Shown here piece by piece: positions 40,124 to 62,386 of a DNA stretch of 64,000 nucleotides; the first letter of the stretch is position 1, and every line of letters begins with the position of its first letter. The DNA is taken from assembly GCF_002237655.1 (NCBI RefSeq), contig NZ_NOKT01000007.1, positions 62,001 to 126,000 of the forward strand, read 5' to 3'. The stretch comes from Streptomyces sp. XY006 (GTDB lineage Bacteria; Actinomycetota; Actinomycetes; Streptomycetales; Streptomycetaceae). A model generated the notes under the pieces. The model was not told the DNA's origin, made no database searches, and saw only the letters and a list, made by a program, of their open reading frames with translations. Position numbers and translations under genes: made by a program.

Positions 40124-40585
40124 TCAGTCCGCCTGCTCCGGCCGGCGCCCGGCGAGCTTCGAGTGCCGGTAGGAGTAGGCGCAGTAGACGACGAGCCCCA
40201 GCGCGAACCAGACGGCGAACCGCACCCAGGTCTGCCACTGCAGGAACGTGATCAGCCAAATGGAGAACACGATCCCCACCGCGGGCACCACCGGCATCCA
40301 CGGCGTGCGGAAGGTGCGCGGCAGATCCGGCCGCCGGTAGCGCAGCACGATCACCGCCGCGCACACCACGACGAACGCCAGCAGGATGCCGATGTTGGTC
40401 AGCTCGGCCGCCTCGCCGATCGGCAGGAAGCCGGCGATCACCGCCGAGGCCACCCCCACGATCCAGGTGACCCGCGTCGGCACGTGCCGCGTCGGATGCG
40501 TCTTCGCGAACCAGGTGGGCAGCAGCCCGTCCCGGGACATCGAGAACCACACCCGCGTCACACCGAGCATGAACGTGAACATCAC
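40124..40585 (-). pseudogene. C-terminal remnant of an APC amino-acid permease, cut by the prophage
   Basis: The 153 codons match the last third of an APC-family amino-acid permease: VTRVWFSMSRDGLLPTWF is the conserved loop, followed by four hydrophobic helices and a short basic tail. A full permease has about 480-500 residues. Homology stops at about 40586-40592, where the reading frame continues for some 25 codons into unrelated DNA before a stop at 40658. There is no ribosome site for a separate protein. The missing N-terminal part should lie at the far end of the prophage. This marks the integration site. Confidence 0.85.
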
Positions 40586-40682
40586 TTGAGCAGGGCGTAT
40601 CCCCCCTGGTGGGAGGCGCGCCCTGCGTGTTCGTTCGCAGTGGCTGACCCTGGTTGGTCATGGTTGGTTTGAGTTGACCCTG
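40586..40682. other. attL-like left prophage junction with repeats
   Basis: Permease homology ends here. GCAGGGCG (40590-40597) and CGCCCTGC (40619-40626) form an inverted repeat with a 21-bp spacer. TGACCCTG occurs twice in direct orientation, at 40645-40652 and 40675-40682. Such arm repeats are expected beside recombinase crossover sites; the exact core cannot be fixed without the other end. Confidence 0.55.
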
Positions 40683-40724
40683 ATGGGCAAGATCTTTCTC
40701 CCATCCGTCTCCCATGGGAGGCGA

Positions 40725-40757
40725 ATGGCCCCCGGCGCAGGAAGCGTCGGGGGCCAT
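40725..40757. terminator. Strong hairpin near the prophage left end
   Basis: ATGGCCCCCGGCGC (40725-40738) pairs with GCGTCGGGGGCCAT (40744-40757): 14 pairs with one G-U, around the loop AGGAA. It could stop transcription entering or leaving the prophage; no T tract follows in either direction. Confidence 0.65.
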
Positions 40758-40859
40758 GAGACCAGGGTGGGAGTTGGCCACCCGGGGAGGCGGGCAGAGC
40801 CCCCACCCTGGCTGTCCTGTTCTAACGCGTGCACCCTACAAACGTCACGGGGTAATCGT

Positions 40860-40875
40860 TCACTCGTTCGAGTGA
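40860..40875. promoter_or_regulatory. Operator-like inverted repeat
   Basis: TCACTCG and CGAGTGA flank TT in a perfect 16-bp inverted repeat within the gene-free region, a good candidate binding site for a phage repressor. Confidence 0.5.
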
Positions 40876-41100
40876 GTTTACTTCCGCTTGACCGTAGAGC
40901 CTCAGAACCGCCCACCCGCCGCCGAGGGGGTGCTCACGACGGATGGACGGCTCAACCAGCACGGGCCGCGCCGGCGGACCCATGCCGGGTTCGTGAGGGG
41001 GGTGGCGGCAAGCGCCATCTGTCATCTCGATTTGCCCACTGTCGAGTTCTCAAACAGATGCATGCGCTGCCCTGCCAGTACCCGCCCCTGATCAAAGAAT

Positions 41101-41116
41101 GCCTGATCTATCAGGC
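41101..41116. promoter_or_regulatory. Operator-like inverted repeat before the small XRE gene
   Basis: GCCTGAT and ATCAGGC flank CT, ending 26 bp before the GTG at 41143. Its place suggests autoregulation of the XRE gene. Confidence 0.55.
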
Positions 41117-41142
41117 TGACATGTGATCACCTTCGACAGAGC

Positions 41143-41382
41143 GTGTCCAGAGTGCACGCACCCGATGACGACGCCTGGCTCACCGAACACTGCCGGGCCA
41201 TCGGCGACCGCATCCGCGCCGAACGCCTCCGCCAAAACCGCACCCAAGAGCAGCTCCACCTCGCCGCCGGCATCAGCCGCTTCACCCTCCAGGAGATCGA
41301 AGCCGGCCGCGCCAACCCGACGCTCCGCCTGCTGCTCCGCATCGCTCGGGAACTGGACACGCCGCTCTCCTCTCTCGTGTAG
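41143..41382 (+). CDS. Small XRE-family helix-turn-helix regulator
   Basis: A 79-residue protein that is essentially one Cro/C1-type DNA-binding domain: RIRAERLRQNRTQEQLHLAAGISRFTLQEIE is helices 1-3 in part, followed by a short C-terminal helix. This size fits a phage or plasmid repressor or antirepressor. GTG 41143 is the only workable start. No good ribosome site is seen, so the message may be leaderless. It is convergent with the Cys-rich gene pair. A perfect inverted repeat lies just upstream. Confidence 0.82.
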   Translation: MSRVHAPDDDAWLTEHCRAIGDRIRAERLRQNRTQEQLHLAAGISRFTLQEIEAGRANPTLRLLLRIARELDTPLSSLV

Positions 41383-41476
41383 TGGCCCGCCGCCAGAACG
41401 GGGCATTGTCCCGGCGGCAGGCCGCGGCCGCCCGTAACGGGGCGTCGGGGCGGCCGCTCATCTCGGCGCCGGCACC

Positions 41477-41680
41477 TCACGACCGGGACCGAGGGCTCTG
41501 AGAGACGCAGATGCGGCAGGCGTACACCTGCATGCTGAGATCGTGGGCGCCCGACGCGCCCTGCGCGATACCCGCGGGGACTGCGCCTCCCGTGAGACGC
41601 GCGTTGCACCAGCAGCAGTTCCAGCCTTGGTACTGGCCATACGTCAGGTCGCTGACAGGCGGCGGCGTAGGGAGGGTCAT
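41477..41680 (-). CDS. Small Cys-rich protein B of the XRE-linked pair
   Basis: A 67-residue protein with two CxxC motifs (CWCNA at ~23-26 and CRIC at ~56-59) that could bind one zinc, separated by a segment with GIAQGASGAHD. ATG 41680 overlaps the stop of the upstream Cys-rich gene by four bases. Similar small proteins accompany XRE regulators in streptomycete accessory DNA, to my recollection. Function unknown. Confidence 0.7.
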   Translation of the reverse strand: MTLPTPPPVSDLTYGQYQGWNCCWCNARLTGGAVPAGIAQGASGAHDLSMQVYACRICVSQSPRSRS

Positions 41681-42033
41681 GGCGCGCCCTCCGAGGCGAG
41701 ACGGCACAGGGCCTGCCGGTCGGTGCACGGCTGGTTGCGGAGGCAGGTGCTGCACGCTGCCACGTGGATGCGGTACACGTCGGATGCCGTCGCGCGGACG
41801 CACCCAGCGCAGCCGCGGGGGAAGATGGTCACCCCGTCGGGGCCGGGCCGGGCGCCGAGGTCGCGCGCTGTGTGCGGGACGAGGCTGGCGCCGCACCACA
41901 CGCACACGGCGCCCTCGGTCTGTAACCCGGACAGGCGGCGCACGTTGGGCAGGGGCAGCAGCGCGAGAGGACCAGCGTCACTGCTGGTCGCGCGTACAGC
42001 TGGGGCCTCCACGGCCGCGGTGATCCGTCTCAC
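41677..42033 (-). CDS. Small Cys-rich protein A of the XRE-linked pair
   Basis: A 118-residue protein with four Cys pairs in the second half (CVWC, CAGC, CSTC and QPC...LC), enough for two zinc knuckles. No signal peptide or membrane helix. GTG 42033 starts just after the terminator of the XRE-TPR gene; the ribosome site is weak. Translationally coupled to the next small gene. No known activity; a DNA- or protein-binding accessory role is possible. Confidence 0.68.
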   Translation of the reverse strand: MRRITAAVEAPAVRATSSDAGPLALLPLPNVRRLSGLQTEGAVCVWCGASLVPHTARDLGARPGPDGVTIFPRGCAGCVRATASDVYRIHVAACSTCLRNQPCTDRQALCRLASEGAP

Positions 42034-42065
42034 ACCACCGACCGTAGAGGCCCCACAGCAGGAGA

Positions 42066-42086
42066 AGGGGCAGGAATCCTGCCCCT
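42066..42086 (-). terminator. Terminator of the XRE-TPR gene
   Basis: AGGGGCAGGA and TCCTGCCCCT are perfectly complementary around a single A, four bases after the stop codon. It separates the regulator from the Cys-rich pair on the same strand. Confidence 0.8.
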
Positions 42087-42090
42087 CACC

Positions 42091-43341
42091 TCACGCGGCC
42101 AACAGGCCCAGCTTCACCGCCAACTCCGACGCGCGCTGCCGCCGCTCGGGCTGCTTCGCCTCGGTCTCCTCCAGCACGATCCTGCGGGCGTACCCGTTGT
42201 ACTTGATCGTCTCCGACGCCGCCTCATGCGCCTTGTCCAACGTCGCGAGCGCCACATCCGGCTGCCCGTCGAGCTGGTAGGCGCGCGCCTCCTCAATCCG
42301 ATGCCGGGCCCGCCGCGGCCGCGACTTGATGACCGCCTTGTCTGCCCGAGCCGCCTGCCGCACCGACTCCCCACCCTGGTGGAGCTCCACCGCGACCGTC
42401 ACGGCGTGGGCACCCATGATGGCCCGGGAGAACGACGTCACCGGGTGGAAGTAGCCGGCCGGCAGCTTCTTGCTGGTCTTCTCCGCCTTGTCCCACCAGC
42501 CCCATGCCGTGCCGTTCTCGCCGCGGCGCGCCGCGGTGTACCCGGCCTCGAACTGCAACGCACCGGCGACGGCGAGGACGTTGTCGTCCGCGTCCGGGAG
42601 GTGGGGTTCGAGGTAGCGGAGCGCCTCCAGCGTGACGGCGTCCGCGGCGTCGAAGTGCGCGGGGCCGGAGTCGCGGTGGGCCTGGGCGGTGAGCCACGCG
42701 GCGACGCCGACGGCGTGCGGGTCCTCGGAGTCCTGGGCCGCGACCATGCCGCGCTCGGCGACGCGCCACAGGAGGGCGCTGTCGGGCTGGTAGGCGACGA
42801 AGAACTGGCTGAGGCTGTACACCTCGGAGAGGATCGCCTGCGCCGCGCGCCGCTCGGCCGCCGTGTTGGACTGCCGGACCGCCAGCTGGGCGTCACGGAT
42901 CAGGTCGGGAAGCAGTTTGCCCACGACCTCCCGGTGGTTGGGGGCCTCGTGCCGGGCGGTCCACGCCGCGTCGAGTCGGTGCCGCAGGTGCTGGGTCGGC
43001 GGCGCCTCCCGGTCCGCAGTCAGCGGGAACGCGTCGACGGCGGCCTTCACCCCCGCGAGGCGGGGGTGGCCGGGCCCGATGAACAGGTCGACGTGCAGGG
43101 TCTGGTCGCCGGTCAGGTCCGCGAGGTCACGGACGCGCAGCAGCTCGGCGATGCGCAGGATCATGGGCAGCTTCGGGGGTTGGATCTGGCCAGTCTCCAC
43201 CTGCTTGACCCACGACGGGGACTTGCCGAGGAAGCCGGCGAGGACGGGTCGGCTCATGCCGCGGCGTTGGCGGTAGATCTGCATGCGTTGGCCGAACGCC
43301 ATGGGGTCGGCGTAAGGGTCCGGGGTAGCATCGGATGGCAT
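42091..43341 (-). CDS. XRE-family regulator with TPR-like C-terminal domain
   Basis: A 416-residue protein. An N-terminal Cro/C1-type helix-turn-helix (FGQRMQIYRQRRGMSRPVL and SPSWVKQVETGQ, residues ~16-55) is followed by ~330 residues of helical repeats resembling TPRs. This architecture is frequent in Streptomyces and often controls neighbouring accessory genes in response to a peptide or ligand. ATG 43341 has GGAAAGGGG upstream. Followed directly by a perfect hairpin terminator and the Cys-rich pair. Within the prophage it could be cargo rather than the lysogeny repressor. Confidence 0.85.
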   Translation of the reverse strand: MPSDATPDPYADPMAFGQRMQIYRQRRGMSRPVLAGFLGKSPSWVKQVETGQIQPPKLPMILRIAELLRVRDLADLTGDQTLHVDLFIGPGHPRLAGVKAAVDAFPLTADREAPPTQHLRHRLDAAWTARHEAPNHREVVGKLLPDLIRDAQLAVRQSNTAAERRAAQAILSEVYSLSQFFVAYQPDSALLWRVAERGMVAAQDSEDPHAVGVAAWLTAQAHRDSGPAHFDAADAVTLEALRYLEPHLPDADDNVLAVAGALQFEAGYTAARRGENGTAWGWWDKAEKTSKKLPAGYFHPVTSFSRAIMGAHAVTVAVELHQGGESVRQAARADKAVIKSRPRRARHRIEEARAYQLDGQPDVALATLDKAHEAASETIKYNGYARRIVLEETEAKQPERRQRASELAVKLGLLAA

Positions 43342-43444
43342 GGTCTCGCCCCTTTCCTGGTTACGGGTCGCACTGTCCAGGGTAGGGGCGGGGCCGTTTT
43401 CGTGTGAGGGGTCTGTGGTGGAAGGGGCCGCGTAGGCTGGTGGT

Positions 43445-43636
43445 ATGTCCCCCGATCTCGTGACCCGTGGTCCCGTGCGCTCTGCTGCGGAGTTGAATCA
43501 GGCGATCCGCGCGCTGTGGACTGGGCCGGGCGGGCATCCGGCGCTGCGGCTGACGGATGAGCAGCGGGAGGAGTACGGGCGGCTGCTGGCCGAGCTGCGG
43601 CAGGTCGAACGCGGGGAAGTCGTCGAGGCCGCGTAG
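43445..43636 (+). CDS. Small hypothetical protein
   Basis: A 63-residue acidic helical protein (RSAAELNQAIRALW, then EQREEYGRLLAELRQVERGE). ATG 43445, divergent from the XRE-TPR gene with 103 bp between. Ends one base from the converging small gene. No known family. Confidence 0.55.
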   Translation: MSPDLVTRGPVRSAAELNQAIRALWTGPGGHPALRLTDEQREEYGRLLAELRQVERGEVVEAA

Positions 43637-43637
43637 C

Positions 43638-43838
43638 CTACTCGCCGAGTTCCTCCGCCGTGACGGTGTCACCGATCGACACCCACAGCACGTGTGCCTG
43701 CGCCGATTCGAAGTTGCCCCCACGGTCCCGGGCCTGTCGCTCCAGCTCGGTATACGTCAGCCCGAGCTCAGCAAGGGCGTGACGGCAGCCAGCGAGCCAC
43801 TCCTCGCGGGTCACCTCGATCACCACGTCGTCATCCAC
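43638..43838 (-). CDS. Small hypothetical phage-type protein
   Basis: A 66-residue acidic protein beginning MDDDVVIEVTREEW, with a helical pattern TYTELERQARDRGGNFES and a LWVSIG strand. GTG 43838 is preferred; upstream frame lacks a ribosome site. Similar short proteins are seen in Streptomyces mobile DNA, to my recollection. Function unknown. Confidence 0.55.
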   Translation of the reverse strand: MDDDVVIEVTREEWLAGCRHALAELGLTYTELERQARDRGGNFESAQAHVLWVSIGDTVTAEELGE

Positions 43839-43920
43839 ACCCCCAGCATGGCAGAGGGCCCCGCCCGCCGTAGCGGACGAGGCCCGTGAGGGTTCTTGCC
43901 AGGTCCGGCAAAAAGCCCGG

Positions 43921-44127
43921 TCAGGCGATGACGTGGTGCACCCACCAGACGGAGAACCCGACCCAGCCGCCGACGAACAGGACCTTGCCCGCCTTCGTGT
44001 GGACCCGGCACCAACGGCGCGTAGCCGCCGACAGAGTGGCCTCCTGCCGGGCAGTCCGCAGCGCATACGTCTCCACCACAGCCCCGGCCAGGATCAGCCC
44101 ACCCCACACCGCGTCGCCCGGATTCAC
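43921..44127 (-). CDS. Small membrane protein of the lysis region
   Basis: A 68-residue protein with two hydrophobic helices (VWGGLILAGAVVETYAL and VLFVGGWVGFSVWWVHHVIA) flanking a basic linker. GTG 44127 overlaps the upstream stop by four bases. Position downstream of endolysin suggests a lysis or holin-type function. Confidence 0.65.
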   Translation of the reverse strand: MNPGDAVWGGLILAGAVVETYALRTARQEATLSAATRRWCRVHTKAGKVLFVGGWVGFSVWWVHHVIA

Positions 44128-44444
44128 CGGCCGACCGCCGTCCAGATGCCCAGGCCGATAGCCGTCGCCGACGCCAGCCCGGCGATCGACTGCAGCGGCC
44201 ACTGGCGGCCCTTCACCGCGTCGAGGTCGGCCTTCAGCGGCTTCAGCTCGTCGTCACGCAACTTCCGTACTTCGTCCTCCAGCTCGCGCCGGAGGTCACG
44301 CACGTCCTGCTCTGTGCGGGCCGACCGTTCGACGAGGACAGCGCAGGACGTCTTGATCTCGCCGAGGTCTCGGCCGAAGCTGCCGATGTCGCTCCTCAGG
44401 TTGGCCAGTTCGACGGCGACGGAGGTCGTCTCCGGCGGCGTCAC
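44124..44444 (-). CDS. Coiled-coil protein with C-terminal membrane helix
   Basis: A 106-residue protein: a charged heptad-rich region (about 10-80; TEQDVRDLRRELEDEVRKL) followed by a single membrane helix (about 85-104). GTG 44444 overlaps the upstream stop. Such tail-anchored coiled coils occur in phage lysis modules; a holin partner or spanin-like role is a guess. Confidence 0.7.
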   Translation of the reverse strand: MTPPETTSVAVELANLRSDIGSFGRDLGEIKTSCAVLVERSARTEQDVRDLRRELEDEVRKLRDDELKPLKADLDAVKGRQWPLQSIAGLASATAIGLGIWTAVGR

Positions 44445-44674
44445 TCTCTCACCGCCTCAGCCCCGTCGGTCCGCAGCCACGACGGCAGCAGCCCCTGCAC
44501 CGACGGCAGCGCCATCACCCGCGCGAATCCACCCGCCACCGCCAGCGCCCCCGCCACCCACGGCAGCGACTCCGGCACACCCGACGCCGCCACGATCCCC
44601 GGCAACGCCACCGCGGTACCCACCGCCGTCTGAAGCACCGTGCGCACGGTCCGCTTCGTCTCTTCCTTCGGCAT
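44441..44674 (-). CDS. Holin-like small membrane protein
   Basis: A 77-residue protein with a charged N-terminus (MPKEETKRTVRTVL) and two hydrophobic segments (about 13-32 and 38-55), the usual holin layout. ATG 44674 has AAGGAGAAG at good distance, so a longer upstream frame is rejected. It follows the endolysin and one small gene. Confidence 0.68.
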   Translation of the reverse strand: MPKEETKRTVRTVLQTAVGTAVALPGIVAASGVPESLPWVAGALAVAGGFARVMALPSVQGLLPSWLRTDGAEAVRE

Positions 44675-44676
44675 GA

Positions 44677-44964
44677 TCACTTCTCCTTCTGCGCGAGCGC
44701 GCGAGCGTGCGCGTCGATGCGCGCGTACTTCTCTTCCGTGGTATGGCCGTCCCACGTGTTGATCTCCGAACGCGTCACGTGCTCGAAGAGGTCCATGTCG
44801 TCAGGCGAGACGTGCCACGACGCTTGCCCGGTGGGCAGATCGACGATGACGACTGCCCACTCAGGCTCGGCCGGGTCGTGGTAGCCGATCGTCGACGGGT
44901 ACGCCGCCGCCAGATGGGCAACGAGATGGCTCCGCTCGCGGTACACCGCGTCAGCGGCGCTCAC
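44677..44964 (-). CDS. Hypothetical phage protein downstream of endolysin
   Basis: A 95-residue soluble protein with the segment EWAVVIVDLPTGQASWHVSP and a C-terminal helix (HTTEEKYARIDAHARALAQ). It starts four bases inside the endolysin gene end and runs up to the holin-like gene. No known family. Confidence 0.7.
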   Translation of the reverse strand: MSAADAVYRERSHLVAHLAAAYPSTIGYHDPAEPEWAVVIVDLPTGQASWHVSPDDMDLFEHVTRSEINTWDGHTTEEKYARIDAHARALAQKEK

Positions 44965-45800
44965 GGGGTCGGCCCCGTCACGTCGACGCTCACCTTCACC
45001 ACCGCGTCCGCGATGGCCTTCTCGACCGCAGCCACTACCGTGGCTGTGTCGACGTCCTCACCGACCATGCCCGCGAGCTTGGTGATCGCCGCCGACTGCG
45101 CGGCGAGCTGCGTGTTCGCCTTGTCCAGCCGCTTCAGGATCTCCGTCTGCACCGACGAGAGCGTCCACGTCGGGTTCGTCGCCGGCGCACCCGGAACGGA
45201 GATCACCCCGTCCAGCGTCAGCACCGCCTTCGCAACCTCAGCTGCAGTGGGCATGTCGTCCTCCTCGCTCTTGCCGGCCGCCCGGGCGACGATGCCCGGG
45301 AACACGACCTCACGGAACTGCTTGATCCGGGCCGCGCCCGGACAGGCCGTGCCGCTGGTGGACCACTCCGGGAACATGGAGTGGTAGCCCATCCCGGGGT
45401 CGTCGTGGCTGCGGCAGATCCGCAGCGGGATCCCGTGGTGCTGGTGCAGCCACACGCCCAGCTTGATGAGTTCCTCGACCTGGGCGGCCGTCCACGGGTC
45501 GGAGCCCTTGGTGTTGGACGCCGTCTCGATCGATACCGCGCCCGTGCCGTCGGGCCGCCGGTTGGCGCCCGCGTTCGCGTCAGCGCGGGTCTCCGTGCCG
45601 ATGAACTGGCCGAGGTCCCCCTCGTAGCCCAGCCCGAAGTGGGACTCCAGGTTGGTGGAGTCGCGCCAGTACTCGTAGGTCCGCTTTGCCGTCCACGGCG
45701 CGATGATGCTGTGCACGATGAACTGCGTCGGCCGGATCGCCGCCTGCTGATCGGACTCCGGCTGCAGCTCCATCTTGGTGGCGCCCGGGTACCAGGCCAT
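44961..45800 (-). CDS. Endolysin: N-acetylmuramoyl-L-alanine amidase
   Basis: A 279-residue lysin that cleaves the amide bond between muramic acid and the stem peptide. The amidase_2/PGRP domain fills about 1-180: zinc His in IVHSIIAP, the GLGYEGDLGQFIG strand, and the C-terminal ligands in GYHSMFPEWSTSGTACPG. Residues ~195-279 are Ala/Val-rich and helical, probably a cell-wall binding or multimerisation region. The gene lies after the tail genes and before the holin-like genes, the normal late order. Confidence 0.9.
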   Translation of the reverse strand: MAWYPGATKMELQPESDQQAAIRPTQFIVHSIIAPWTAKRTYEYWRDSTNLESHFGLGYEGDLGQFIGTETRADANAGANRRPDGTGAVSIETASNTKGSDPWTAAQVEELIKLGVWLHQHHGIPLRICRSHDDPGMGYHSMFPEWSTSGTACPGAARIKQFREVVFPGIVARAAGKSEEDDMPTAAEVAKAVLTLDGVISVPGAPATNPTWTLSSVQTEILKRLDKANTQLAAQSAAITKLAGMVGEDVDTATVVAAVEKAIADAVVKVSVDVTGPTP

Positions 45801-45801
45801 G

Positions 45802-46056
45802 TCAGCCGCCCCCGACAGCGGTCCACTGGACGGCGTACGCGGCGGCCGTGCCGTACCAGACCAGCTCGTGCGACGCGTCCCGCACCAGCCAGCCCCCGGC
45901 CGGGATGACCTTCCGCGAGCCCTCCGAGCTGAGCAGCATCAACTGCACGCCCGTGTCGCTGGAGATCGTGTACGCGCCGTCCAGCCACTCCGCGACCGCG
46001 GTGCCGTTCGTGCCGTCGTACTGCATCGACTCGTGCCGTCGAGTCACGATTGCCAT
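45802..46056 (-). CDS. Small phage structural or hypothetical protein
   Basis: An 84-residue beta-rich protein (TRRHESMQYDGTNGTAVAEW, then strands around VIPAGGWLVRD). AGGAGA lies six bases before ATG 46056. It abuts the endolysin gene. Possibly a tail-tip or chaperone component. Confidence 0.7.
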   Translation of the reverse strand: MAIVTRRHESMQYDGTNGTAVAEWLDGAYTISSDTGVQLMLLSSEGSRKVIPAGGWLVRDASHELVWYGTAAAYAVQWTAVGGG

Positions 46057-46064
46057 GAGGTCTC

Positions 46065-46583
46065 CTATGCGGTGCGTCGCAGCTCAAGCCACGAGTCGGT
46101 GTACAGAACCGCGGCGATGGCCGACGAAGCGGCCTGCGCCCAGTCCAGGGAGAACGTTCCGGCCGTGCTGCCGACGCGGAGCGTGCCGTGAAGGATGGCG
46201 CCCATGTCCGCGTCGCTGGTGCCGTAGGCGTTGCGGGACTGCGTCACGTCGTTGGACTCCATACGCAGGCTGTAGCCCGTCGTTCCCGACGCCGCGGTGC
46301 CCGAGCCCGGGGCGGCCAGGTGCCACTCGCCGAGCGACCCCGTGGGGACGGAGAAGTCGATGAGCAAGTCGGCAGCCGGGTCGGCGAAGTACTTGATCCA
46401 CCCGTGCCAGATGTAGACGGCGTTCGCCTCCACCTCGAACTGCAGGTGCGGGTCGGCCGTCGCCGTAGTGGTCGCCGCGCGGCTGGTATCCGCGGTCTTC
46501 CGCGCAGTCTGCGGCAACATGCTCCGCAGCAGAGCGGCGGTCGCACGCTGTCCGGCCGCCGGCTGGGGGTAGTACTCGGCCAC
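46065..46583 (-). CDS. Phage tail-associated protein
   Basis: A 172-residue beta-rich protein starting MAEYYPQPAAGQRATAALLRSMLPQ, a pattern seen in tail-fibre or receptor-binding proteins of streptomycete siphoviruses. The rest (DPHLQFEVEANAVYIW to SWLELRR) reads as a jelly-roll. GTG 46583 has AAGGAGG five bases upstream. Position between the big tail protein and endolysin supports a distal tail role. Confidence 0.7.
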   Translation of the reverse strand: MAEYYPQPAAGQRATAALLRSMLPQTARKTADTSRAATTTATADPHLQFEVEANAVYIWHGWIKYFADPAADLLIDFSVPTGSLGEWHLAAPGSGTAASGTTGYSLRMESNDVTQSRNAYGTSDADMGAILHGTLRVGSTAGTFSLDWAQAASSAIAAVLYTDSWLELRRTA

Positions 46584-46593
46584 GCTGCCCTCC

Positions 46594-49440
46594 TTACAGG
46601 GGAAGAATCCAGGGGTTCGCGAGGCGCACGTCCGCGCCCGCGCTGTGTGCTTTGACGACGCCGTTGACGCTGCGGGTCACCGTGAACGTCTGCGGGTCCG
46701 TCAGCTGGAAGTTGTCGTAGGTGAACGTCAGCGGCAGAACGTTGGTGTTGCCGCTGCCGAGGACAGACCGCACACCCACCGACCCGGCCGTGCTGAGCGA
46801 TCCGTCGGTCACCGTCGACTGCCAGTCCGGCTCCGCCTCGCTCGTCGCCCACGCCTTCGCCCGCAGCCGCGCGCCCTTCACCTGGAAGCGGATCGTGAAG
46901 AACGTGCTGGCCGCGTGCGTGCCCGGGATCGTGGTCGTGGACAGGTCGGACTGGGCGCCGCCGACGCGCTTCTGCAGGACGAGACGGAGGGTCTGGTCGG
47001 TGCGGAAATCCAGCCTCGCGCCGTAGGTGTTGTTGGCGTCCATGTAGCGGCCCAGCACCATCGCGTACTGCGAGTCGCCCGTCGCCAGGGCCGCCGTCGA
47101 CACGCTCACCCGCACGTCCACATCAGCCGACGGCGACGGCACCACGCTGAACCGCGAGCTGTTCACCGCCGTGGGGCTGTGCGTGGCCTGCGTCCCGTTC
47201 GTGGCGTACTCGGAGGCCGCGCCACCGGTATTCGTCCACGACTGGCCCGTATCCGCCGTGCCCCACCCGTTCGAGGTTGTGCGCGTGAACGTGTCCGACA
47301 CGGCCCCGCTGACAGCGGTCACCCGCATCACCTCGCCACCCACCCGGATGTCGAACGGCCAGTCCGCGCTGCTCGTCGTCCACAGCGTCACCTCACCCGG
47401 CGACGGCGCCACCACCAGCGACGTATCCGACGAGCCCACCGCCGACACCAGCACCGAACCGTCCGTGTCGATGCGCGTCTCGTCGTCCAGGTAGCCCACC
47501 GTGTACGGCGACGCCGGCGCGCAGGCGAACGTCAGCCGTTGCTCGAAGTGGTTGATGGTCTCCGGGTCGATGCCCAGGATGAGCTGGTCGATGGTGTCCG
47601 GGGCGAGCCACGCGGGCGGGTTGGTGATCTGGATGCGGTCGCCGAGGCGGAGGGCGAGGATTGCGCGCCGCATGTCCGGGGTGATGCTGGGGTGGGCCAG
47701 GTTCACGCTGATGCGGGGGAAGCGCTCCTCGTCGGTGGTGCCGAGGTGGACGCGCCACGCGGCGTGGTCGCGGATCGTAGCCCGGTCCGTCGTGGCGAGG
47801 TTGAGGGTGAGCCCTGAGCTCTCGCCGTACTTGCCGATCGCCTGGGTCCCGAGCGGGCCGTCGGTCTCTTCGTAGGTCTCCGACACGCCGCCCGCGGTGA
47901 CGGTCAGCACGTTCTGAGTGGTCCGGTCGTCCTCCACTGGCACTGGCACTGCGGCCAGGTTGTAGCCCGAGTACGACAGGATCAGCGCGGGGTCCTGGTT
48001 GTAGAGGCTGGCGCGGGTGCGGTAGCCGAGGCCGAGCGCCGAGCGGGTCTCGTACAGCAGGCCGCCGTCAGCGAGTACCGCTTCCTGTATCAGGGTGAGG
48101 GGGTTCGCCTTGCCCTGGGCGCCCATCCGCACTGTGTCGTCCAGGTCGCCGACCCACTCGAACGGGATCGCTTCCTCGCCGCACAGCCGCTGGATGCGGC
48201 GGCCGGCTGTCTCGCCGATGGGGTTGAGGCGGGCGCCGAGGGCGTCGATGTCGCTGATGGCGTTCTCGACGGTGATGTGGCCGAGGACGCCGCCTGTGAG
48301 CCCCGTCGTGCTGTTCGGGCCGACGGCGGAGATGGACGCGACGAAGGCGTGGACCGCCGTGCAGCGGGTGAGGCCCTCGGTGTTCCGGGTCAGCGCCGTG
48401 GACGACTCGACGCCGTTGAGGACGTCGAGGGTGCGGATGGTGTAGATGGTGCTGGAGCCGGACTCCTGGAACTCCAGGCTGACGTACAGGAGCTTGTTGC
48501 GGATGTCGAAGGTGTGGTCCAGGTCTACGCCGAAGTTGGTGCCGTCGTCGCCCATGAAGATCAGACTGAGACTGCGGGTGGTGGCGTTGTAGACCAGCTC
48601 GTAGTGGGCGAGCGGCGTGGTGCTGGTGTCCACGGCCTGGCTCACCCGCATGATCACCTTGCGGTCGGACAGCGACGTCGACGGCGTCGTGAAGAAGAAG
48701 CGGACCTGCGTCGCGGTCGGTGTGTCGTACCGGGAGACGCCGCCGCTCATCGCCGCCCCGGTGAAGACGGGCAGCGGGTCACTCGCTGCGAACCTGGTAC
48801 TCGCCGCCAGGTCCGGGGTACCGGTGGAGAACGTCATCGGGCTGCCGCTGGTGACCGCCGAGGCAATCTGCGTCGAGCCGTCCGCGTCCTCGCACGGCCA
48901 GTACGCCACCACGCTACTCGCGAGCGGCTCCGTGATCGCCCGGTACACCACCGACCGCTCCGGCGCCGGGCCCTGCGCCAGACGCTGCAGGATGCCCGCC
49001 ACCGTCACGTCGACCCACACATCGCTGCCCGACGGGTCCCAGTTCGGGGCCCACTCGGTGACCTCGCCCCACAGTCGGTACGCCTTGCCGCCGTTGCCGT
49101 CCGGCACGCTGATCCGGAGCGGGGTGTTGCGGCCGATGGACCCGTAGTACGGGCCGGAGGGGTTGCGCGGGGAGAAGCGGCCGTCCTGGTTCTTCAACTG
49201 CAGGGTCGCCGTCGCGCGCTCGGTCTGGGATCCCTCGCTGCCCTGGATGCCGTAGGTGATGCGGATCTGGCCGCTGTCGTCACGGACCATGCAGTAGGAG
49301 GTGATGTCGACCCACTCGCCCGCCACCCACAGTTCGACCTGTACCGGCTCGTCGTTCGACGCCTCTCCGCTGCCCCGTAGTGGGCCGGGCAGGTTGGTGA
49401 GGCGGCGCCGGACGGCGGCGACGAGCGGGGCGATCGGCAT
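46594..49440 (-). CDS. Large minor tail protein with lectin-like domain
   Basis: A 948-residue protein. The N-terminus (PVQVELWVAGEWVDITSYC, then ATLQLKNQDGRFSPRNPSGPYYG) is a common opening of actinophage minor tail proteins. The middle is beta-rich. A concanavalin/LamG-like region spans about 725-910 (DTGQSWTNTGG ... SRFSVVPSPSADVDVRVSVS), suggesting host-surface sugar binding. AGGAGG precedes ATG 49440. It follows the tape measure and a small tail gene. Confidence 0.82.
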   Translation of the reverse strand: MPIAPLVAAVRRRLTNLPGPLRGSGEASNDEPVQVELWVAGEWVDITSYCMVRDDSGQIRITYGIQGSEGSQTERATATLQLKNQDGRFSPRNPSGPYYGSIGRNTPLRISVPDGNGGKAYRLWGEVTEWAPNWDPSGSDVWVDVTVAGILQRLAQGPAPERSVVYRAITEPLASSVVAYWPCEDADGSTQIASAVTSGSPMTFSTGTPDLAASTRFAASDPLPVFTGAAMSGGVSRYDTPTATQVRFFFTTPSTSLSDRKVIMRVSQAVDTSTTPLAHYELVYNATTRSLSLIFMGDDGTNFGVDLDHTFDIRNKLLYVSLEFQESGSSTIYTIRTLDVLNGVESSTALTRNTEGLTRCTAVHAFVASISAVGPNSTTGLTGGVLGHITVENAISDIDALGARLNPIGETAGRRIQRLCGEEAIPFEWVGDLDDTVRMGAQGKANPLTLIQEAVLADGGLLYETRSALGLGYRTRASLYNQDPALILSYSGYNLAAVPVPVEDDRTTQNVLTVTAGGVSETYEETDGPLGTQAIGKYGESSGLTLNLATTDRATIRDHAAWRVHLGTTDEERFPRISVNLAHPSITPDMRRAILALRLGDRIQITNPPAWLAPDTIDQLILGIDPETINHFEQRLTFACAPASPYTVGYLDDETRIDTDGSVLVSAVGSSDTSLVVAPSPGEVTLWTTSSADWPFDIRVGGEVMRVTAVSGAVSDTFTRTTSNGWGTADTGQSWTNTGGAASEYATNGTQATHSPTAVNSSRFSVVPSPSADVDVRVSVSTAALATGDSQYAMVLGRYMDANNTYGARLDFRTDQTLRLVLQKRVGGAQSDLSTTTIPGTHAASTFFTIRFQVKGARLRAKAWATSEAEPDWQSTVTDGSLSTAGSVGVRSVLGSGNTNVLPLTFTYDNFQLTDPQTFTVTRSVNGVVKAHSAGADVRLANPWILPL

Positions 49441-49443
49441 CGG

Positions 49444-49953
49444 TCAGCCCACCTCCTGGAAAATCACCCAGCAGCGCATGTCGGTGGCCGTGGTCGGCGT
49501 GGTCGCGCGGACCCGGAGGAACCGGCTCACGGCGATGATCGGGCGGGTGTCGGGCATCCACTGCCGCACGTACTGCAGCCCCGACTCGCCCGAGACGGAG
49601 GACAGGGAGACAGTGTCGAAGACGCGGCTGGCCGTCGTGGTGCCCTCCGCGGTCGCCGTGTATCCGGTCGCGCTGGTGCCCAGGGTGAGTAGCGTGTTCG
49701 CCCCGTTGGGGTCCAGGTTCTGCACGCCCGCGTTGACGTGCGCGGTCACCGTGGCGGCCACGTCCGTCTGCAGCAGTTCGACGACGCCGTCCGCACCGGG
49801 CGGGTCGTCCAGGCTGAACCCCCACTCCAGCAGCTGGATCTGCCTCGTCGACGGCGTGGCGAGCTGGAGCATCGTCTTGATGCTCGTGCCCGTCGTCACC
49901 GACTGCTGCGCGGCAGTCGTCGGCGCCGGGCCATTCCACACGATGTACGGCAC
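49444..49953 (-). CDS. Phage tail/structural protein
   Basis: A 169-residue beta-rich protein (MPYIVWNGPAPTTAAQQSV; LEWGFSLDDPPGADG; SRFLRVRATTPTTATDMRCW). Placed between tape measure and minor tail protein, where distal tail proteins are usual. GTG 49953 has a purine-rich site upstream. Confidence 0.72.
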   Translation of the reverse strand: MPYIVWNGPAPTTAAQQSVTTGTSIKTMLQLATPSTRQIQLLEWGFSLDDPPGADGVVELLQTDVAATVTAHVNAGVQNLDPNGANTLLTLGTSATGYTATAEGTTTASRVFDTVSLSSVSGESGLQYVRQWMPDTRPIIAVSRFLRVRATTPTTATDMRCWVIFQEVG

Positions 49954-49971
49954 TATCCCGTCCCTTCCTCG

Positions 49972-52900
49972 TTACCTGCCGCGCGGCGGCTGCAGGACCG
50001 CCTCGATCGAGCCGCGGGCCTTGACCACCCGCCGGCCGGTGTCCACCCACAGCTCTCCGAACTCGCGCCCGGCGATGCTCACCTGGAGCACGATCGGCTG
50101 CGCATCGCTGGTGGCGGCCGGCGTCGGTGCGTATCGGGTGCCGCCGGTGCGGGGGGTGTTGAGCATGGATGCCCAGGCCTGCTGCTGCATGCGGCGGGTG
50201 TCCGGCCCGGAGTACACGCGGGACCCGAACGGGAGCCGCACGAGCTCGGGCTCGTGCTCGCCGACCATCGTCCAGCCGGAGCGCAGACCACCCGACGCGG
50301 CACCGATGATCCCCCCCGACGCCTTCTTCTTGAACGCCGACTCGATCTGCTTCTCCATAGCCTTCGCCAGCTTGTCCATGGAGCGCGCCAGCTTCTCCTG
50401 CGAGTTGGTCAGCTTCTTGACCTGCAACTCCTGCGCCTTGATCGCCGCCCCGAACACAGAGTCCGCCGTCGTCTTCCCCGCCGAACCGGCCGCGCCAGTG
50501 ATCTGCGACTGCAGCGAGTTCAGCGAGCCGATCTCCGACGACGACGCCTGCAACAGCGCCCCCGCCGTCTCCAGCCCACCGCCCTCGACGCCGGCTTCGG
50601 CGACCTGCTGCAGCAGCGACGACGACAGGCCCTTGCCCTTGAGGTCCTTCAGCGCCTGGGCGAACGCGGTGGCCTTGTCCCGGGAGGCGGTGAGGCCGCC
50701 CATGATGGACGCGACGGTGACCGGGCCGTCGCCGCTGGCGCCGCGGGTGATGTTCGAGGCGTTCAGCACCCCGGACTTCACGCTGTCGGACAGGGACGCC
50801 GCGGCCTGCTTGAGGCTGTCGAGCTTGTCCTTGGCCTTCTCCAGCGACGCGGACACCTTGCCGAGCTGCTTCTCCCAGCTCAGCAACTTCTTGCCGGTCG
50901 AGTCGAGGGCCTTCAGTAGGGAGCGCTCCTGCCCGCCGTGCGTGGCCTTCATGATGATGCCGCGCCACTGGTTCAGCGCGTTCACCAGACTGCTGACGCT
51001 GTCCGGGTTCGCGAACGCCGACCCGAACTCCGAGCGCCGGTAGCCGGCCATCTGCCCGAAGTGGCTGATGGTCAGGTCGCCCCAGGCGTCCTTCCGGGCC
51101 GCCTTCTCCGCCTTGGTGACACCGCCCTTGGCGTACCACTTCACCGCGCCGCCGAGGATGCCCACGGTCTCTTCGGCGATCTGCCGGGACCTGGGCCGCT
51201 TCGTGGGGCTGAGCGGGATGTACGCCTCTCCGCCCGTCTCGGGCTCCGCCCACACCCGCCACGCCCCGGCCGGGGCGATCTGCGCGCTGTGGTCCTCCAC
51301 CCCGCCGTCGGCGAAGGAGCGGAAGATGTTGCCGTTGGCGCTGAATCGCGACGCCGCCCGGTTGTCGGCCGCCGAGCCCACGAACCGCTGCTGCACGTTG
51401 ATGTACGACGTGCCGAGCACCCGTCCCGTCAGCGCCCGCACCGCGGCGTTGAACATCGCCGCGTTGGCGCCGACCGGCACATTCTTCTTCGAGAACTTCG
51501 TGCCCCTCACCCGCTGCGCCTCGCCGAAGAACGGGCGAGGGTTGGCGGCGATCGTGGCCTCGGAACGGCGCTTGTCGAAGGCGTTGAGCTCGCCGCGAGC
51601 GGCCCGCAAGGCGGCCTCCGCCTCCCGCTTGTCGGCCGACAACTTCGCCTTCCGCTCCCGCGTCAGGTCCTTGTCGTTCAGCTTCTCCTTGATGGAGGCG
51701 AGGTTGTCCTCGGCCGCCTTCACGTCGAGCTTGAGCTTCGCCCGGCTCAGCTTCTCGTTGGCCGTGGTCGCGAACTCGCCGATCTTCCCGTTGACCGCAC
51801 CCAGCGTCTCGCTGGCGCCGGCCGCCCACTCGTCGAACTTACGGTTCGACTCCTTCAGCGCGTCACCGATGCCGGGGATGTTCCCGAAGGCCATGGCGAG
51901 CCCAGACACGACCAGGTCCGCGGACTCGATCGCCGTCTGCGCCATCAGCGTGAAGCCGTTGCTGAGGATCGGCAGCCACTGGATGCCGGTGTTGACCATG
52001 TCGATGATCGTCTGGCCGACCGCGACGAACGCCCCGCGGATGGCGGTCTCGTTCTCCTTCGCCCAGTTCGACAGGCCCCGGAAGCCCTCACCCATCGTCG
52101 AGACGTCGACGCCCGACACCGCCAGCAGGGACTCGACCAGCGCCCCACCGAGGACGCTCGCCAGATCCGAGGCGACCTCGAAGCCGATCCGGCCGACCTC
52201 GTTGAAGGTGCGGAAGACGTCGGCCGCCACGTGCGCCGCCGGCTCCAGGCCCTCCATCGCCCCTTCGAACACGGACGCGAAGCCCTCAACGGCCAGGCCC
52301 GCCCCACGAAACGCCTCGCCGAGCAGCGGCCCGAAGGTCTCGCCGAAGGACCCCGCGATCTTCCCGAGCGACGGCAGCAGCGAGTCGTTGATCAGCGACG
52401 CCAGACCGCCCAACATCTCCGACGAGCCGCCGATGCCCTGCTCCAGCCCGTCGAACATGCCCGGCAGACCCGTGTCCAGGAACCCGCCCAGCAGGCTGTC
52501 CCACGCATCCAGGGCCGGCTGGGACTTGGCACCGAACTCCAGGAACGCCTGAGTGAACGATCCGATCGACCCGGCGAAGTCCTTGAACCACGCCGAGCCC
52601 ATCTTCACGTTGGTGAGCAGCGCCGACTGGAACGCTGGCGAGTCGGCGAACCGCGCGGCCCTTTCCGTGATCCGGCCGAAGGTGTCCGCACCGATCTTGA
52701 TGACCGGTGTCAGGTCCTTCATCGCCCCGGACAGGCTTTTCACGGCCTTCTCGGTGTGCGGGGCGACGGTCTTCTCCGCTGTCTTCTTCCAGTCCTCGAA
52801 GGCGGGCTTGAGCTCCTTGGCCTTCTTCTTCAAGTCGTCGAGCGCCAGCGCGCCGCCGCCGACGACGGCCGTCATCCCGAACAGCATCGGCGACAACGCG

Positions 52901-53730
52901 CCGATCGTGGGGAGCAGGGCGCTGCCCAGGGCCACCGCAGTGCCGATCAGCTTGCCCCGCAAGCCCGTGCTGCCGCTCCCCCCGAAGGCGTTTGCCGCGT
53001 TGTTGGCCGAGACGGTGAGGGTGCCCAGGTTGCCGCGCAGATCCCGAAGGTCGTCGCCGGTGTCCCGGCTAGCACTCCCCAGATCGCCGATCTGAAGGGT
53101 GAGGTTGGCGGCCGTGCCCGTGAGGTGGGCGAGACGGTCCTCTGTGTCTTCCGCACGCTGCCCCAGCCGGCCAACAGCGGTGGCAGCGCGACTCCCGGCC
53201 GCGCGCAGTTGGTTCAGCTCACGGGTCGCGTCCTCCGCCGCCGCGGCGAGGCGCTGCAGCGACACCGACGCGGTCACGCCAGCCGCAGTGAGGGCTGCGA
53301 GGGAGGTTGAGGCGCGCTGCGCCGCGGTGTTCAAGCCGCGGATGGCGCGGCTGGTGCTGTTGATCTGCCCGGACTGGTTGTCGAAGGTGACGTCGAGGCG
53401 GATCGGGGACTGCGCGCGCAGGTCCCGTATGCGGCCGGAGATCGTGGTGAAGCCGGCGGCGGTCCGGTCGTCCAGCCCAACGGAGATGTCCGCGCGGCTG
53501 GCTGCCCGGATGGCGGTCATGGACCGCTGGATAGCGGCGAACCCGGCCACCGTGCGGTCATCAAGGCGTACCGCCACGTCGATGTCACGGGCGGCCGCGC
53601 GCAGTCCGGTGAGCGCCGTGGATGCAGCCCGGGCACGGTCCCGGAGGGTGCTGAGGGAGGAGTTGACGGAGGTGAGTCCGGTGCCGGTCTGGTTGGCGAC
53701 CCGGACGCGGATCTCGATGTCGTTACCCAC
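49972..53730 (-). CDS. Tail tape measure protein
   Basis: A 1252-residue protein that sets tail length and helps DNA passage. N-terminal 250 residues carry repeated RVANQTGTGLTSVNSSLSTL- and VRLDDRTVAGFAAI-type helical repeats. Hydrophobic segments near 290 (ALGSALLPTIGALSPMLFGM) could insert in the membrane, and long helical stretches follow. A C-terminal region (about 950-1190) is coiled-coil-like. GTG 53730 is chosen because GGAGG lies eight bases upstream; GTG 53739 is too close to it. It overlaps the end of the frameshifted chaperone by eight bases. Confidence 0.92.
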   Translation of the reverse strand: MGNDIEIRVRVANQTGTGLTSVNSSLSTLRDRARAASTALTGLRAAARDIDVAVRLDDRTVAGFAAIQRSMTAIRAASRADISVGLDDRTAAGFTTISGRIRDLRAQSPIRLDVTFDNQSGQINSTSRAIRGLNTAAQRASTSLAALTAAGVTASVSLQRLAAAAEDATRELNQLRAAGSRAATAVGRLGQRAEDTEDRLAHLTGTAANLTLQIGDLGSASRDTGDDLRDLRGNLGTLTVSANNAANAFGGSGSTGLRGKLIGTAVALGSALLPTIGALSPMLFGMTAVVGGGALALDDLKKKAKELKPAFEDWKKTAEKTVAPHTEKAVKSLSGAMKDLTPVIKIGADTFGRITERAARFADSPAFQSALLTNVKMGSAWFKDFAGSIGSFTQAFLEFGAKSQPALDAWDSLLGGFLDTGLPGMFDGLEQGIGGSSEMLGGLASLINDSLLPSLGKIAGSFGETFGPLLGEAFRGAGLAVEGFASVFEGAMEGLEPAAHVAADVFRTFNEVGRIGFEVASDLASVLGGALVESLLAVSGVDVSTMGEGFRGLSNWAKENETAIRGAFVAVGQTIIDMVNTGIQWLPILSNGFTLMAQTAIESADLVVSGLAMAFGNIPGIGDALKESNRKFDEWAAGASETLGAVNGKIGEFATTANEKLSRAKLKLDVKAAEDNLASIKEKLNDKDLTRERKAKLSADKREAEAALRAARGELNAFDKRRSEATIAANPRPFFGEAQRVRGTKFSKKNVPVGANAAMFNAAVRALTGRVLGTSYINVQQRFVGSAADNRAASRFSANGNIFRSFADGGVEDHSAQIAPAGAWRVWAEPETGGEAYIPLSPTKRPRSRQIAEETVGILGGAVKWYAKGGVTKAEKAARKDAWGDLTISHFGQMAGYRRSEFGSAFANPDSVSSLVNALNQWRGIIMKATHGGQERSLLKALDSTGKKLLSWEKQLGKVSASLEKAKDKLDSLKQAAASLSDSVKSGVLNASNITRGASGDGPVTVASIMGGLTASRDKATAFAQALKDLKGKGLSSSLLQQVAEAGVEGGGLETAGALLQASSSEIGSLNSLQSQITGAAGSAGKTTADSVFGAAIKAQELQVKKLTNSQEKLARSMDKLAKAMEKQIESAFKKKASGGIIGAASGGLRSGWTMVGEHEPELVRLPFGSRVYSGPDTRRMQQQAWASMLNTPRTGGTRYAPTPAATSDAQPIVLQVSIAGREFGELWVDTGRRVVKARGSIEAVLQPPRGR

Positions 53731-54255
53731 CGTCGACACCTCCCTCTGGTGCTGGTGTTCCGAGTTGTTCGATCTTCAGGAGCCGGAGCAGCTCGGCGTC
53801 CTCCTGCAGCAGCGTCGTGAGCGTGTAGCCGGGGAAGCGCTGCAGGAGGCCGAGGATCAGGCGGGCACGGCCGAGGTCTGAGGGCTCTCGGACAGGGGTT
53901 CCATCGGAATCGACACCGCCGGGGACGGCTCGCCAGAGGGCGAGCTCTGCGGCAAAGGGTCAGAGACCCCGCTGTTCGCCTTGCGCACGGCGTCGAGCAT
54001 GGCCAGGATCATGGCCACGTCCTGAGTGCACACGCCCTCATACGTGGTCGGGACGGGCTGCCCTTGATCGTCCTCGACGTTCCACGACACCAGGCGCTTC
54101 ACGAGCGTCTTGACGATCAGGTCGGCGTCCATGTCGACGCCATCCAGTTCCAGTTCCTCTGCCACGGTCATGCCGCGCACGCTGGCCTGGAGGCCCTCGT
54201 ACTCGGTGCCGGTGAAGTCCAGCGCGTAGACGCGCCTCTTCGGGCGGTAACCCAT
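53723..54255 (-). CDS. Frameshifted tail assembly chaperone (GT-type fusion)
   Basis: The predicted -1 frameshift product shares residues 1-101 with the short chaperone, then continues for 76 residues (AAELALWRAVPGGVD ... LGRARLILGLLQRFPGYTL ... EDAELLRLLKIEQL) for 177 in total. The added part is helical, as in T domains that bind the tape measure protein. There is no start codon with a ribosome site for separate translation of the second frame. Both products are expected at a fixed ratio, as established for lambda-like phages. Confidence 0.78.
53857..54255 (-). CDS. Tail assembly chaperone (G-type product)
   Basis: A 132-residue acidic protein (MGYRPKRRVYALDFTGTEYEGLQ; TVAEELELDGVDMDADLIVKTLVKRLVSW) immediately upstream of the tape measure gene, the invariable place of siphoviral tail chaperones. 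Its end is Ser/Pro-rich and overlaps a second reading frame that continues to the tape measure start. A slippery CCCTTTG is in phase at codons 100-101, so a fraction of ribosomes should make a longer product. Confidence 0.85.
   Translation of the reverse strand: MGYRPKRRVYALDFTGTEYEGLQASVRGMTVAEELELDGVDMDADLIVKTLVKRLVSWNVEDDQGQPVPTTYEGVCTQDVAMILAMLDAVRKANSGVSDPLPQSSPSGEPSPAVSIPMEPLSESPQTSAVPA
53953..53959 (-). promoter_or_regulatory. Programmed -1 frameshift site CCCTTTG
   Basis: On the minus strand the heptamer reads C CCT TTG in the zero frame, the canonical X-XXY-YYZ form. After slipping to CCC TTT the -1 frame is open for 76 more codons, up to TAA at 53723-53725. Confidence 0.8.
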
Positions 54256-54267
54256 CCTATTTACCCC

Positions 54268-54675
54268 CTATGTCCAGGTCGGGACGGTGCCATCCGACAG
54301 GACGCCGGGGACCGCGAAGGTGAGCTCGCCGCTGTCGGAGCGGCTGAGCGGGTAGTCGGTGAAGAGGCACTCGTTGTTGAGGCTCTGGCCGCTGACGGTC
54401 AGGGACACGGTGCGCGCCACCGAGGTGGACGGCACGGTCTTGAACACGTCATGGCTCGCGTTCGTGGCGTCGTTGAAGACGCCGTTGAGGGTGATGCTGA
54501 AGTCGGCGAGCAGCAGGAGCCGCTCATAGGCCGACTTGTCGATGCCGGTGATGTCCTGCACGCCGCGCGGGGTGGCGAACTGCAGGTTGGTGATGTCGTT
54601 CTTGATCGCCCTGGCGGTGCCGCCCGCGTCATCCACGGAGCAGGTCGTCCACCCGAGGCCGCTCTCCTTGGCCAT
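54268..54675 (-). CDS. Tail tube (major tail) protein, copy 2
   Basis: A 135-residue beta-rich protein (MAKESGLGWTTCSVDD; DITGIDKSAYERLLLLADFSI in part; VSLTVSGQSLNNECLF). Position directly before the tail chaperones is that of the major tail protein in siphoviruses. It shares the TGIDKS..ER motif with the larger gene at 55.1-55.9 kb, suggesting related folds. Confidence 0.75.
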   Translation of the reverse strand: MAKESGLGWTTCSVDDAGGTARAIKNDITNLQFATPRGVQDITGIDKSAYERLLLLADFSITLNGVFNDATNASHDVFKTVPSTSVARTVSLTVSGQSLNNECLFTDYPLSRSDSGELTFAVPGVLSDGTVPTWT

Positions 54676-54678
54676 GGC

Positions 54679-55113
54679 CTATCCCTTCTGCTGCTGGTCG
54701 ACGAGGCGGAGTTGGTTCTCGCCGAAGTCCTCCACCCAGTCCTGCGGACGGGTGTGCTGCCGCTTCCGGCCGGTCGGGTTGCCCCGCCAGTCCCCGTCAC
54801 GGACGAGGTAGATCTCGGGTCGGGTGCGGTGCTCGGCGAAGCAGCGCTGACCGCTTTCGAACCGGAACACCGTGAGGCCTTGCTCGGTGCGCATCTCGCG
54901 GAACGTGCGCCGCGACTGGCCCCGGATGTAGGCGGCCTGCGTCGCGCCGAGCTCCGTGCGCTCGTCGATGACGGAGTCCCAGCCGTGCCGCCACTGCGGG
55001 CAGCCGACCTGCTCGCACGCCGCCACCACGCTCGTGTCACGCGGGCTGGTGATCTGGTAGGTCTGGTACGCCTGCACCGGCAGCGCCGGGTCGATACGAG
55101 TCACCGGTCGCAT
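54679..55113 (-). CDS. Hypothetical phage protein between tail-tube genes
   Basis: A 144-residue basic protein (ACEQVGCPQWRHGWDSVIDE; RTFREMRTEQGLTVFRFESGQRCFAEH; DWRGNPTGRKRQ). Two N-terminal Cys and two His could hold a metal. ATG 55113 overlaps the upstream stop (ATGA). Found near tail genes in related phages, to my recollection; function unknown. Confidence 0.72.
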   Translation of the reverse strand: MRPVTRIDPALPVQAYQTYQITSPRDTSVVAACEQVGCPQWRHGWDSVIDERTELGATQAAYIRGQSRRTFREMRTEQGLTVFRFESGQRCFAEHRTRPEIYLVRDGDWRGNPTGRKRQHTRPQDWVEDFGENQLRLVDQQQKG

Positions 55114-55856
55114 CAGAACACCTGCCCTGCGATCTCGTTCTTCACGATCACCACGGAGAACGCCAGCGAGGAGAACCCGCCCGTCGTCGTGGTGACCGCT
55201 CGGATGTAGCGGCGGATGGTGGCGTTGTTCGCCGTCGCGATCCGCTCCGCGGTGCGCCCGGCGGTGAGCTGCGTGAAGCTGAGCCCGGCGACGTCCGCGA
55301 ACGTCGAGTTGTCCGCGCTGTCCTGGATCTTCACCGTGACGTCCGTGCCGGTGAACGCATACGCCTGGAGGTAAGCCTGCGCCCCGAACGCCGCCGACGC
55401 TGCGGTGTCGATCGACGAGCCGTTCGTCGCCGCGGTGTCGGTGCGCACGCCGGCCGTCAGCGACCGGCCCCACTCGACACCGAACCCGTTGCACTGGAGA
55501 TCGAAGGTGAAGGTGAACGCCCCGTCGTCGCCGCGCTGGCCGTCGTAGTTGACCTGCTTCGACACCTGGCACGCCGCCGGATTCCCCAGCGTCGTCCCCC
55601 GGAAGTACGACGCGATCACGTCCGTCGTCGGCAGCGTGCTCAGCCGCGGGTGCACACGGTCCGTCCCCGGGTTGAAAAAGCACGTCCCGCCCATCGAGCC
55701 GGTGCGCTTCCCACCGATACGCTCGTGACCGCTCTTGTCGATGCCCGTCGTGTCGAGCGTGGCGGGGCCGCCGGCCACGGCGATGCTGTTGATGTCGCCG
55801 GAGACGTCGTACCCGTGCAGGTAGAAGTTGTCGCCGAGCCCGGACTGCTTACTCAC
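55113..55856 (-). CDS. Tail tube-like structural protein, copy 1
   Basis: A 247-residue beta-rich protein (SKQSGLGDNFYLHGYDVSGD; LDTTGIDKSGHERIGGKRTG; FTFTFDLQCNGFGVEWG). Its C-terminal half (about 125-245) looks like an added Ig-like domain. It shares the TGIDKS..ER segment with the smaller tail gene two genes downstream. GTG 55856 overlaps the upstream gene by four bases. Confidence 0.75.
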   Translation of the reverse strand: MSKQSGLGDNFYLHGYDVSGDINSIAVAGGPATLDTTGIDKSGHERIGGKRTGSMGGTCFFNPGTDRVHPRLSTLPTTDVIASYFRGTTLGNPAACQVSKQVNYDGQRGDDGAFTFTFDLQCNGFGVEWGRSLTAGVRTDTAATNGSSIDTAASAAFGAQAYLQAYAFTGTDVTVKIQDSADNSTFADVAGLSFTQLTAGRTAERIATANNATIRRYIRAVTTTTGGFSSLAFSVVIVKNEIAGQVF

Positions 55857-56305: not shown

Positions 56306-56308
56306 CGG

Positions 56309-57759: not shown

Positions 57760-57795
57760 CTCTCGTCACCTCCTCTCGTGGTCTCGTGCAGGGGG

Positions 57796-58200: not shown

Positions 58201-58217
58201 GCTCGTCGTCCCTCCCC

Positions 58218-59104: not shown

Positions 59105-59137
59105 GGAGGTGGTCCTTTCTGTCTCGGTGCAGCCGGG

Positions 59138-60514: not shown

Positions 60515-60524
60515 GCTGCCTCCT

Positions 60525-62310: not shown

Positions 62311-62386
62311 GTCGATCTGCTCTCTCAGGTCGGCCATGCCCCGGGGGTGTTCCAGCACCCGCCGGGGTCCATTGTTGATACGTCCG

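Follow-up and report, generated by a model that had tools for sequence, protein, structure and literature searches.

A temperate tailed phage encoding a tyrosine integrase has almost certainly integrated, in a site-specific manner, into a chromosomal amino acid permease gene of the CAT type in Streptomyces sp. XY006. The 64,000-nucleotide stretch of DNA analyzed here (the window; C71:62001-126000 of a genome of 8.25 Mb in 73 contigs) contains the left junction, and the right junction lies further along the same contig (Table 1). The insertion is of an ordinary kind, although it could be mapped cleanly; the earlier note was right about the gene and the event and wrong about the integrase family. 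According to the proposed mechanism, a tailed Streptomyces phage would insert at codons ~340 to 346 of the permease gene, in predicted TM8, by means of a tyrosine integrase, whose gene the prophage carries at its right end and which would recombine at the 20-bp core common to attL and attR, its N-terminal domain binding putative arm-type sites, the TYTCCCA repeats, on both sides of that core. Insertion splits the permease gene and would inactivate the permease, and excision would leave a single core behind.

Table 1. Coordinates of the prophage, its junctions, and its predicted genes (window positions unless preceded by C71)
Feature	Position	Strand	Basis or remark
C-terminal fragment of the split CAT/APC amino acid permease	40124..40582	-	Pfam, orthologues, joined-flank alignment, hydropathy
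attL core, 20 bp, CCGAGCATGAACGTGAACAT	40563..40582	+	Longest exact match between the junction regions
Prophage, left 23.4 kb	40583..64000		Runs on beyond the window to C71:157870
Inverted repeat, arms 40590-40597 and 40619-40626	40590..40626		Wholly phage-side, background density
Putative left arm-type integrase sites, TCTCCCATCCGTCTCCCA	40697..40714	+	Sequence pair TYTCCCA-N4-TYTCCCA
Phage XRE-type regulator, candidate repressor	42091..43302	-	PHROG 5823
Endolysin	44961..45800	-	PHROG 1493
Tail tape measure protein	49972..53730	-	PHROG 305
Major head protein	59138..60514	-	PHROG 10
Head maturation protease	60525..61523	-	PHROG 2976
Portal protein	62448..64000	-	PHROG 2662; ORF 62448-64133, 5' end just past the window
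Partner pair near attR, TTTCCCACTCGTCTCCCA	window-equivalent 95780-95797		Sequence pair
Integrase (tyrosine recombinase), beside attR	C71:156487-157860	+	PHROG 1, 2.1e-15

Two halves of one permease gene flank the prophage

The earlier note described an APC permease reduced to its last ~153 codons exactly where phage DNA begins. Both parts of this description were borne out. The window ORF at 40124-40585 (minus strand) matched PF13520 (1.3e-15) and PF13906 (1e-15), and host homology extends no further than the edge of the att core. Phage DNA extends from position 40583, and the GTG "start" of the 153-residue ORF (40583-40585) is already phage-side sequence. A search for the N-terminal part at the other prophage end, which the earlier note had suggested as a check, located it on the same contig beyond the window (C71:157851-158887), where it ends at the second copy of the core. 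In the same-genome search, C71:157871-158842 (minus strand) was 92% identical to residues 1 to 324 of L009, an intact orthologue, and this half sits in a 352-residue ORF that ends in phage sequence. The two permease fragments are separated by 55.3 kb, indicating that the right end of the prophage lies ~32 kb beyond the window. The C-terminal fragment is present in a single copy in the genome, with paralogues elsewhere that are at most 53% identical.

Joining the host flanks with one copy of the core reconstituted an uninterrupted ORF of 491 codons, of which the C-terminal fragment represents residues ~340 to 491. Compared with eight intact orthologues, all from other Streptomyces species, the joined ORF displayed 83 to 89% DNA identity, and alignment with the closest of these (L009 to L011) required only 0 to 1 gap openings across ~1,450 bp. 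The reconstructed protein has an APC profile and a CAT-like full length; among solved structures, the CAT homologue 5oqt/6f34 is the closest to it (GkApcT 5oqt, 4e-129 over residues 10 to 468). Hydropathy analysis placed the insertion point in a hydrophobic segment counted as TM8 of 12, a numbering in which two adjacent peaks at residues 119 to 162 are taken as one helix, and the C-terminal fragment starts within this predicted helix. The gene is thus split into 346 and 145 codons, and the phage provides no replacement end. Since neither half holds a complete transmembrane core, insertion is expected to inactivate the permease, and excision would be expected to restore the gene exactly.

Both junctions map to within a 20-bp core

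The core CCGAGCATGAACGTGAACAT, which encodes permease residues 340 to 346, recurs at attR with 20 of 20 bp identical (C71:157851-157870; window-equivalent 95851-95870) and occurs only at these two sites in 100 kb (the window plus L043 and L044). Both ends of the insertion are therefore mapped to within these 20 bp. Counting one core, the prophage amounts to 55,288 bp. Integration took place within a protein-coding gene rather than in a tRNA gene; a tRNA search of the fetched prophage sequence and of the surroundings of both junctions gave no hit. The 8-bp inverted repeat reported to span the junction fared less well: its arms are exact, but it starts 8 bp past the core and lies wholly on the phage side. 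For exact repeats with 8-bp arms and loops of 3 to 30 bp, the density per 100 bp is 0.24 within the prophage, as against 0.21 for the host flank, indicating that this repeat is no more than expected by chance; it was accordingly rejected as a junction signal.

The integrase is a divergent tyrosine recombinase

The gene abutting attR ends in the core, its TGA stop codon lying inside it, and int therefore remains whole after insertion. Pfam returned no match for the encoded protein, whereas other members of its family show PF00589 or SAM-like domains. In an alignment of 29 members, R219, K278, R366, H390, and Y399 were invariant; by reading of the sequence, the usual H of the HxxR motif is Y363 in this enzyme. 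The family profile matched solved phage integrases (3nkh, 3.3e-9; 2kiw, 1.7e-8), and the AlphaFold model (pLDDT 81.7), in which a β-rich N-terminal domain precedes the core-binding domain, matched the folds of XerA, Tn1549 Int, XerD, and λ Int with E values of 1e-6 to 4e-4, the best fold matches being 12 to 16% identical in sequence. Together with the PHROG 1 assignment, these profile matches, catalytic residues, and predicted fold identify the enzyme as a divergent tyrosine recombinase. The fold, the β-rich N-terminal domain ahead of the core-binding domain, and the arm-like repeats around the core are features in common with λ Int and Tn1549 Int, from which the present enzyme differs by its remote sequence lacking a Pfam match and by the overlap of its gene with the core and the right repeat pair. 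No related integrase was detectable in the cultured-phage (tblastn) and plasmid collections searched.

The earlier note had favored a serine integrase, arguing from the location of the site inside a coding gene. Tyrosine integrases typically use tRNA or tmRNA sites and serine integrases more commonly use coding regions, dnaJ2 being reported as a tyrosine integrase exception to that rule (PMC6109161), and many integrase attB sites fall in protein-coding genes (PMC12884075). This preference of serine integrases for coding genes (PMC6109161) speaks for such an enzyme, but it is very unlikely to have inserted the prophage: the gene abutting attR encodes a tyrosine recombinase, no PF07508 match was found in the prophage, the sole match in the genome being on another contig (C12), and a 20-bp common core with flanking arm-like repeats is a better fit to a tyrosine than to a serine enzyme. 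A coding-gene target is not diagnostic of a serine integrase, and the present prophage is another exception beside dnaJ2. Like the phage described here, the dnaJ2 prophages of Bifidobacterium are tailed, reside in an actinobacterial host, and use a tyrosine integrase and a coding-gene attB, a combination described as unusual (PMC6109161). They differ in that attB is at the 3' end of dnaJ2, which is reconstructed upon insertion, whereas the present site is in the middle of the gene.

Paired repeats flank the core

The motif TYTCCCA-N4-TYTCCCA, which the earlier note had missed, is found once at each prophage end, and no third copy is present in the 100 kb. The window contains one occurrence versus none in 100 shuffled sequences, a post hoc comparison given that the pattern had been noticed at the junctions. 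In the deduced attP, the repeats are paired, spaced by 11 bp, and located on both sides of the core. Of 34 related integrase loci, 25 also contain the pair, a recurrence that provides independent support for it at the sequence level. The right pair lies within the int coding sequence, and part of its conservation may be imposed at the protein level; in six relatives (L064, L065, L068, L069, L073, and L075), the pair is located just after the int stop codon, indicating that protein conservation alone does not account for it. By analogy with λ-type heterobivalent integrases, we infer that the N-terminal domain of the integrase binds the TYTCCCA repeats as its arm-type sites.

Related integrases abut different cores

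A phage contig (L159) encoding an integrase 71% identical to that of the prophage has its int gene joined directly to DNA matching the left end of the prophage (positions 40687-40812, 77% identity), which is the arrangement expected of attP; two TYTCCCA pairs, at 4322 and 4528, flank its core region, as they would in attP. A second, 57-kb phage contig (L160, IMGVR_UViG_3300046536_000466) encodes a 69% identical integrase, with int likewise joined directly to DNA of the left-end type. The core of L160 differs from that of the window phage, and L159 and L160 share a third core. Integrases 61 to 66% identical (L047 to L050) end at an ORF resembling a P-loop kinase, whose start codon overlaps or adjoins the int stop codon; the search for a second core copy in these kinase-abutting relatives never gave more than one exact match in a genome. 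Some integrases 40 to 46% identical end beside an ORF beginning with MKFISTKSFMPFVIYRI, which we take to resemble the C terminus of UppP. Among members 61 to 71% identical, the att cores are of three or more kinds, two of them within or next to protein-coding genes; the more distant members border on still others. All of the related loci with organism names were from Streptomyces, with which gene content and G+C of the present genome are in accord. A tentative reading, to which we give somewhat less than even credence, is that the integrase belongs to a Streptomyces lineage of tyrosine integrases that keeps its arm sites and readily changes its core. If so, these enzymes would lend themselves naturally to studying how a tyrosine integrase acquires a new target, and the embedding of attP in the end of int would cause the last residues of the enzyme and the core to change together.

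Gene content and relatives of the prophage

Prophage genes were predicted with a simple codon-usage caller. Virion, packaging, and lysis genes are all present between the cores, including, in addition to those of Table 1, genes for a large terminase, a head-tail adaptor, an FtsK-like protein, a DNA methyltransferase, an RNA ligase, and an exonuclease, and the tailed prophage appears to be complete. The best candidate excisionase (L044:12894-13196) had no PHROG match. The closest cultured relatives are the Streptomyces phages Xkcd426 and Dagobah, which are related by their terminase (61% identity, the highest found among cultured phages) and major capsid protein (44%) and have no integrase detectably related by tblastn. 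The terminase is 100% identical to that of a 52.6-kb IMG/VR contig, of which a fetched stretch of 7.3 kb was identical to this genome, indicating that the prophage has probably already been catalogued automatically. Other IMG/VR contigs carry relatives with 85 to 93% terminase identity.

Occurrence of the split permease and alternative explanations

A strong match to the C-terminal permease fragment was present in 157 of 393 sampled Streptomyces genomes (~40%). Among the matches listed for these 157 genomes, leaving aside G214 (327 residues), only the present genome has a permease split by a phage, indicating that the insertion is rare or recent in this sample. No prophage having its attB in an amino acid permease gene turned up in the literature searched.

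In one of the sampled genomes (G009:C1:8687937-8688490; L045), the permease lacks its N-terminal ~1 kb, and ~100 bp of unrelated sequence join the remaining fragment to the usp gene next to it. That fragment ends ~10 bp beyond the position of the att core, and no phage is present. We considered whether this site, too, had received a phage and rejected the idea upon reading of the locus, where the N-terminal part is deleted and the ~100 bp are filler.

Decay of the kind seen in G009 makes it legitimate to ask whether the fragment in the window is an ordinary permease pseudogene, or a rearrangement scar, lying beside phage DNA by chance. This is scarcely conceivable, since neither half of the permease is missing or damaged, the two are collinear, and what lies between them is exactly a phage with a perfect 20-bp direct repeat at its ends. 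The insertion could also be a regulated switch in which conditional excision restores the permease without lysis, a form of active lysogeny discussed for φSa3mw and hlb in Staphylococcus aureus (PMC6597384). The expected exactness of restoration and the uninterrupted ORFs of the integrase and the regulator are in keeping with such a switch, which is nonetheless improbable in view of the lack of conservation of the arrangement, no other phage split having been found among the listed matches from the 157 genomes. φSa3int in hlb likewise disrupts a chromosomal coding gene in a manner reversible by excision (PMC6597384), in a different host and with a different phage and gene. Site-specific integration of a temperate tailed phage by its own tyrosine integrase, the reading preferred here, agrees with the earlier proposal of a prophage in an amino acid permease gene, with phage modules between the cores and one half of the permease at each end.

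Significance and additional observations

An attB/attP pair with precise coordinates is now available for an actinobacterial tyrosine integrase of divergent sequence. This pair could serve as an integration tool, because the permease gene carrying attB is found in ~40% of the sampled genomes of the genus. More generally, a serine integrase should not be deduced solely from a site that lies within a coding gene.

Three other features of the window were noted. The region at 14524-23942 has the look of a cluster for N-glycan degradation, in which genes resembling those of a sugar ABC transporter (by reading only) are located beside two hydrolases identified by Pfam, a GH85 endohexosaminidase (18899-20902) and a GH38 α-mannosidase (20928-23942). 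ARAGORN detected a tRNA-Glu (ctc) of 67 nucleotides between genes at 10347-10413; it is short for a tRNA and may be degenerate. Finally, positions 29712-31133 encode a bacterial homologue of the lipase maturation factor LMF1 (PF06762, 2.1e-62).
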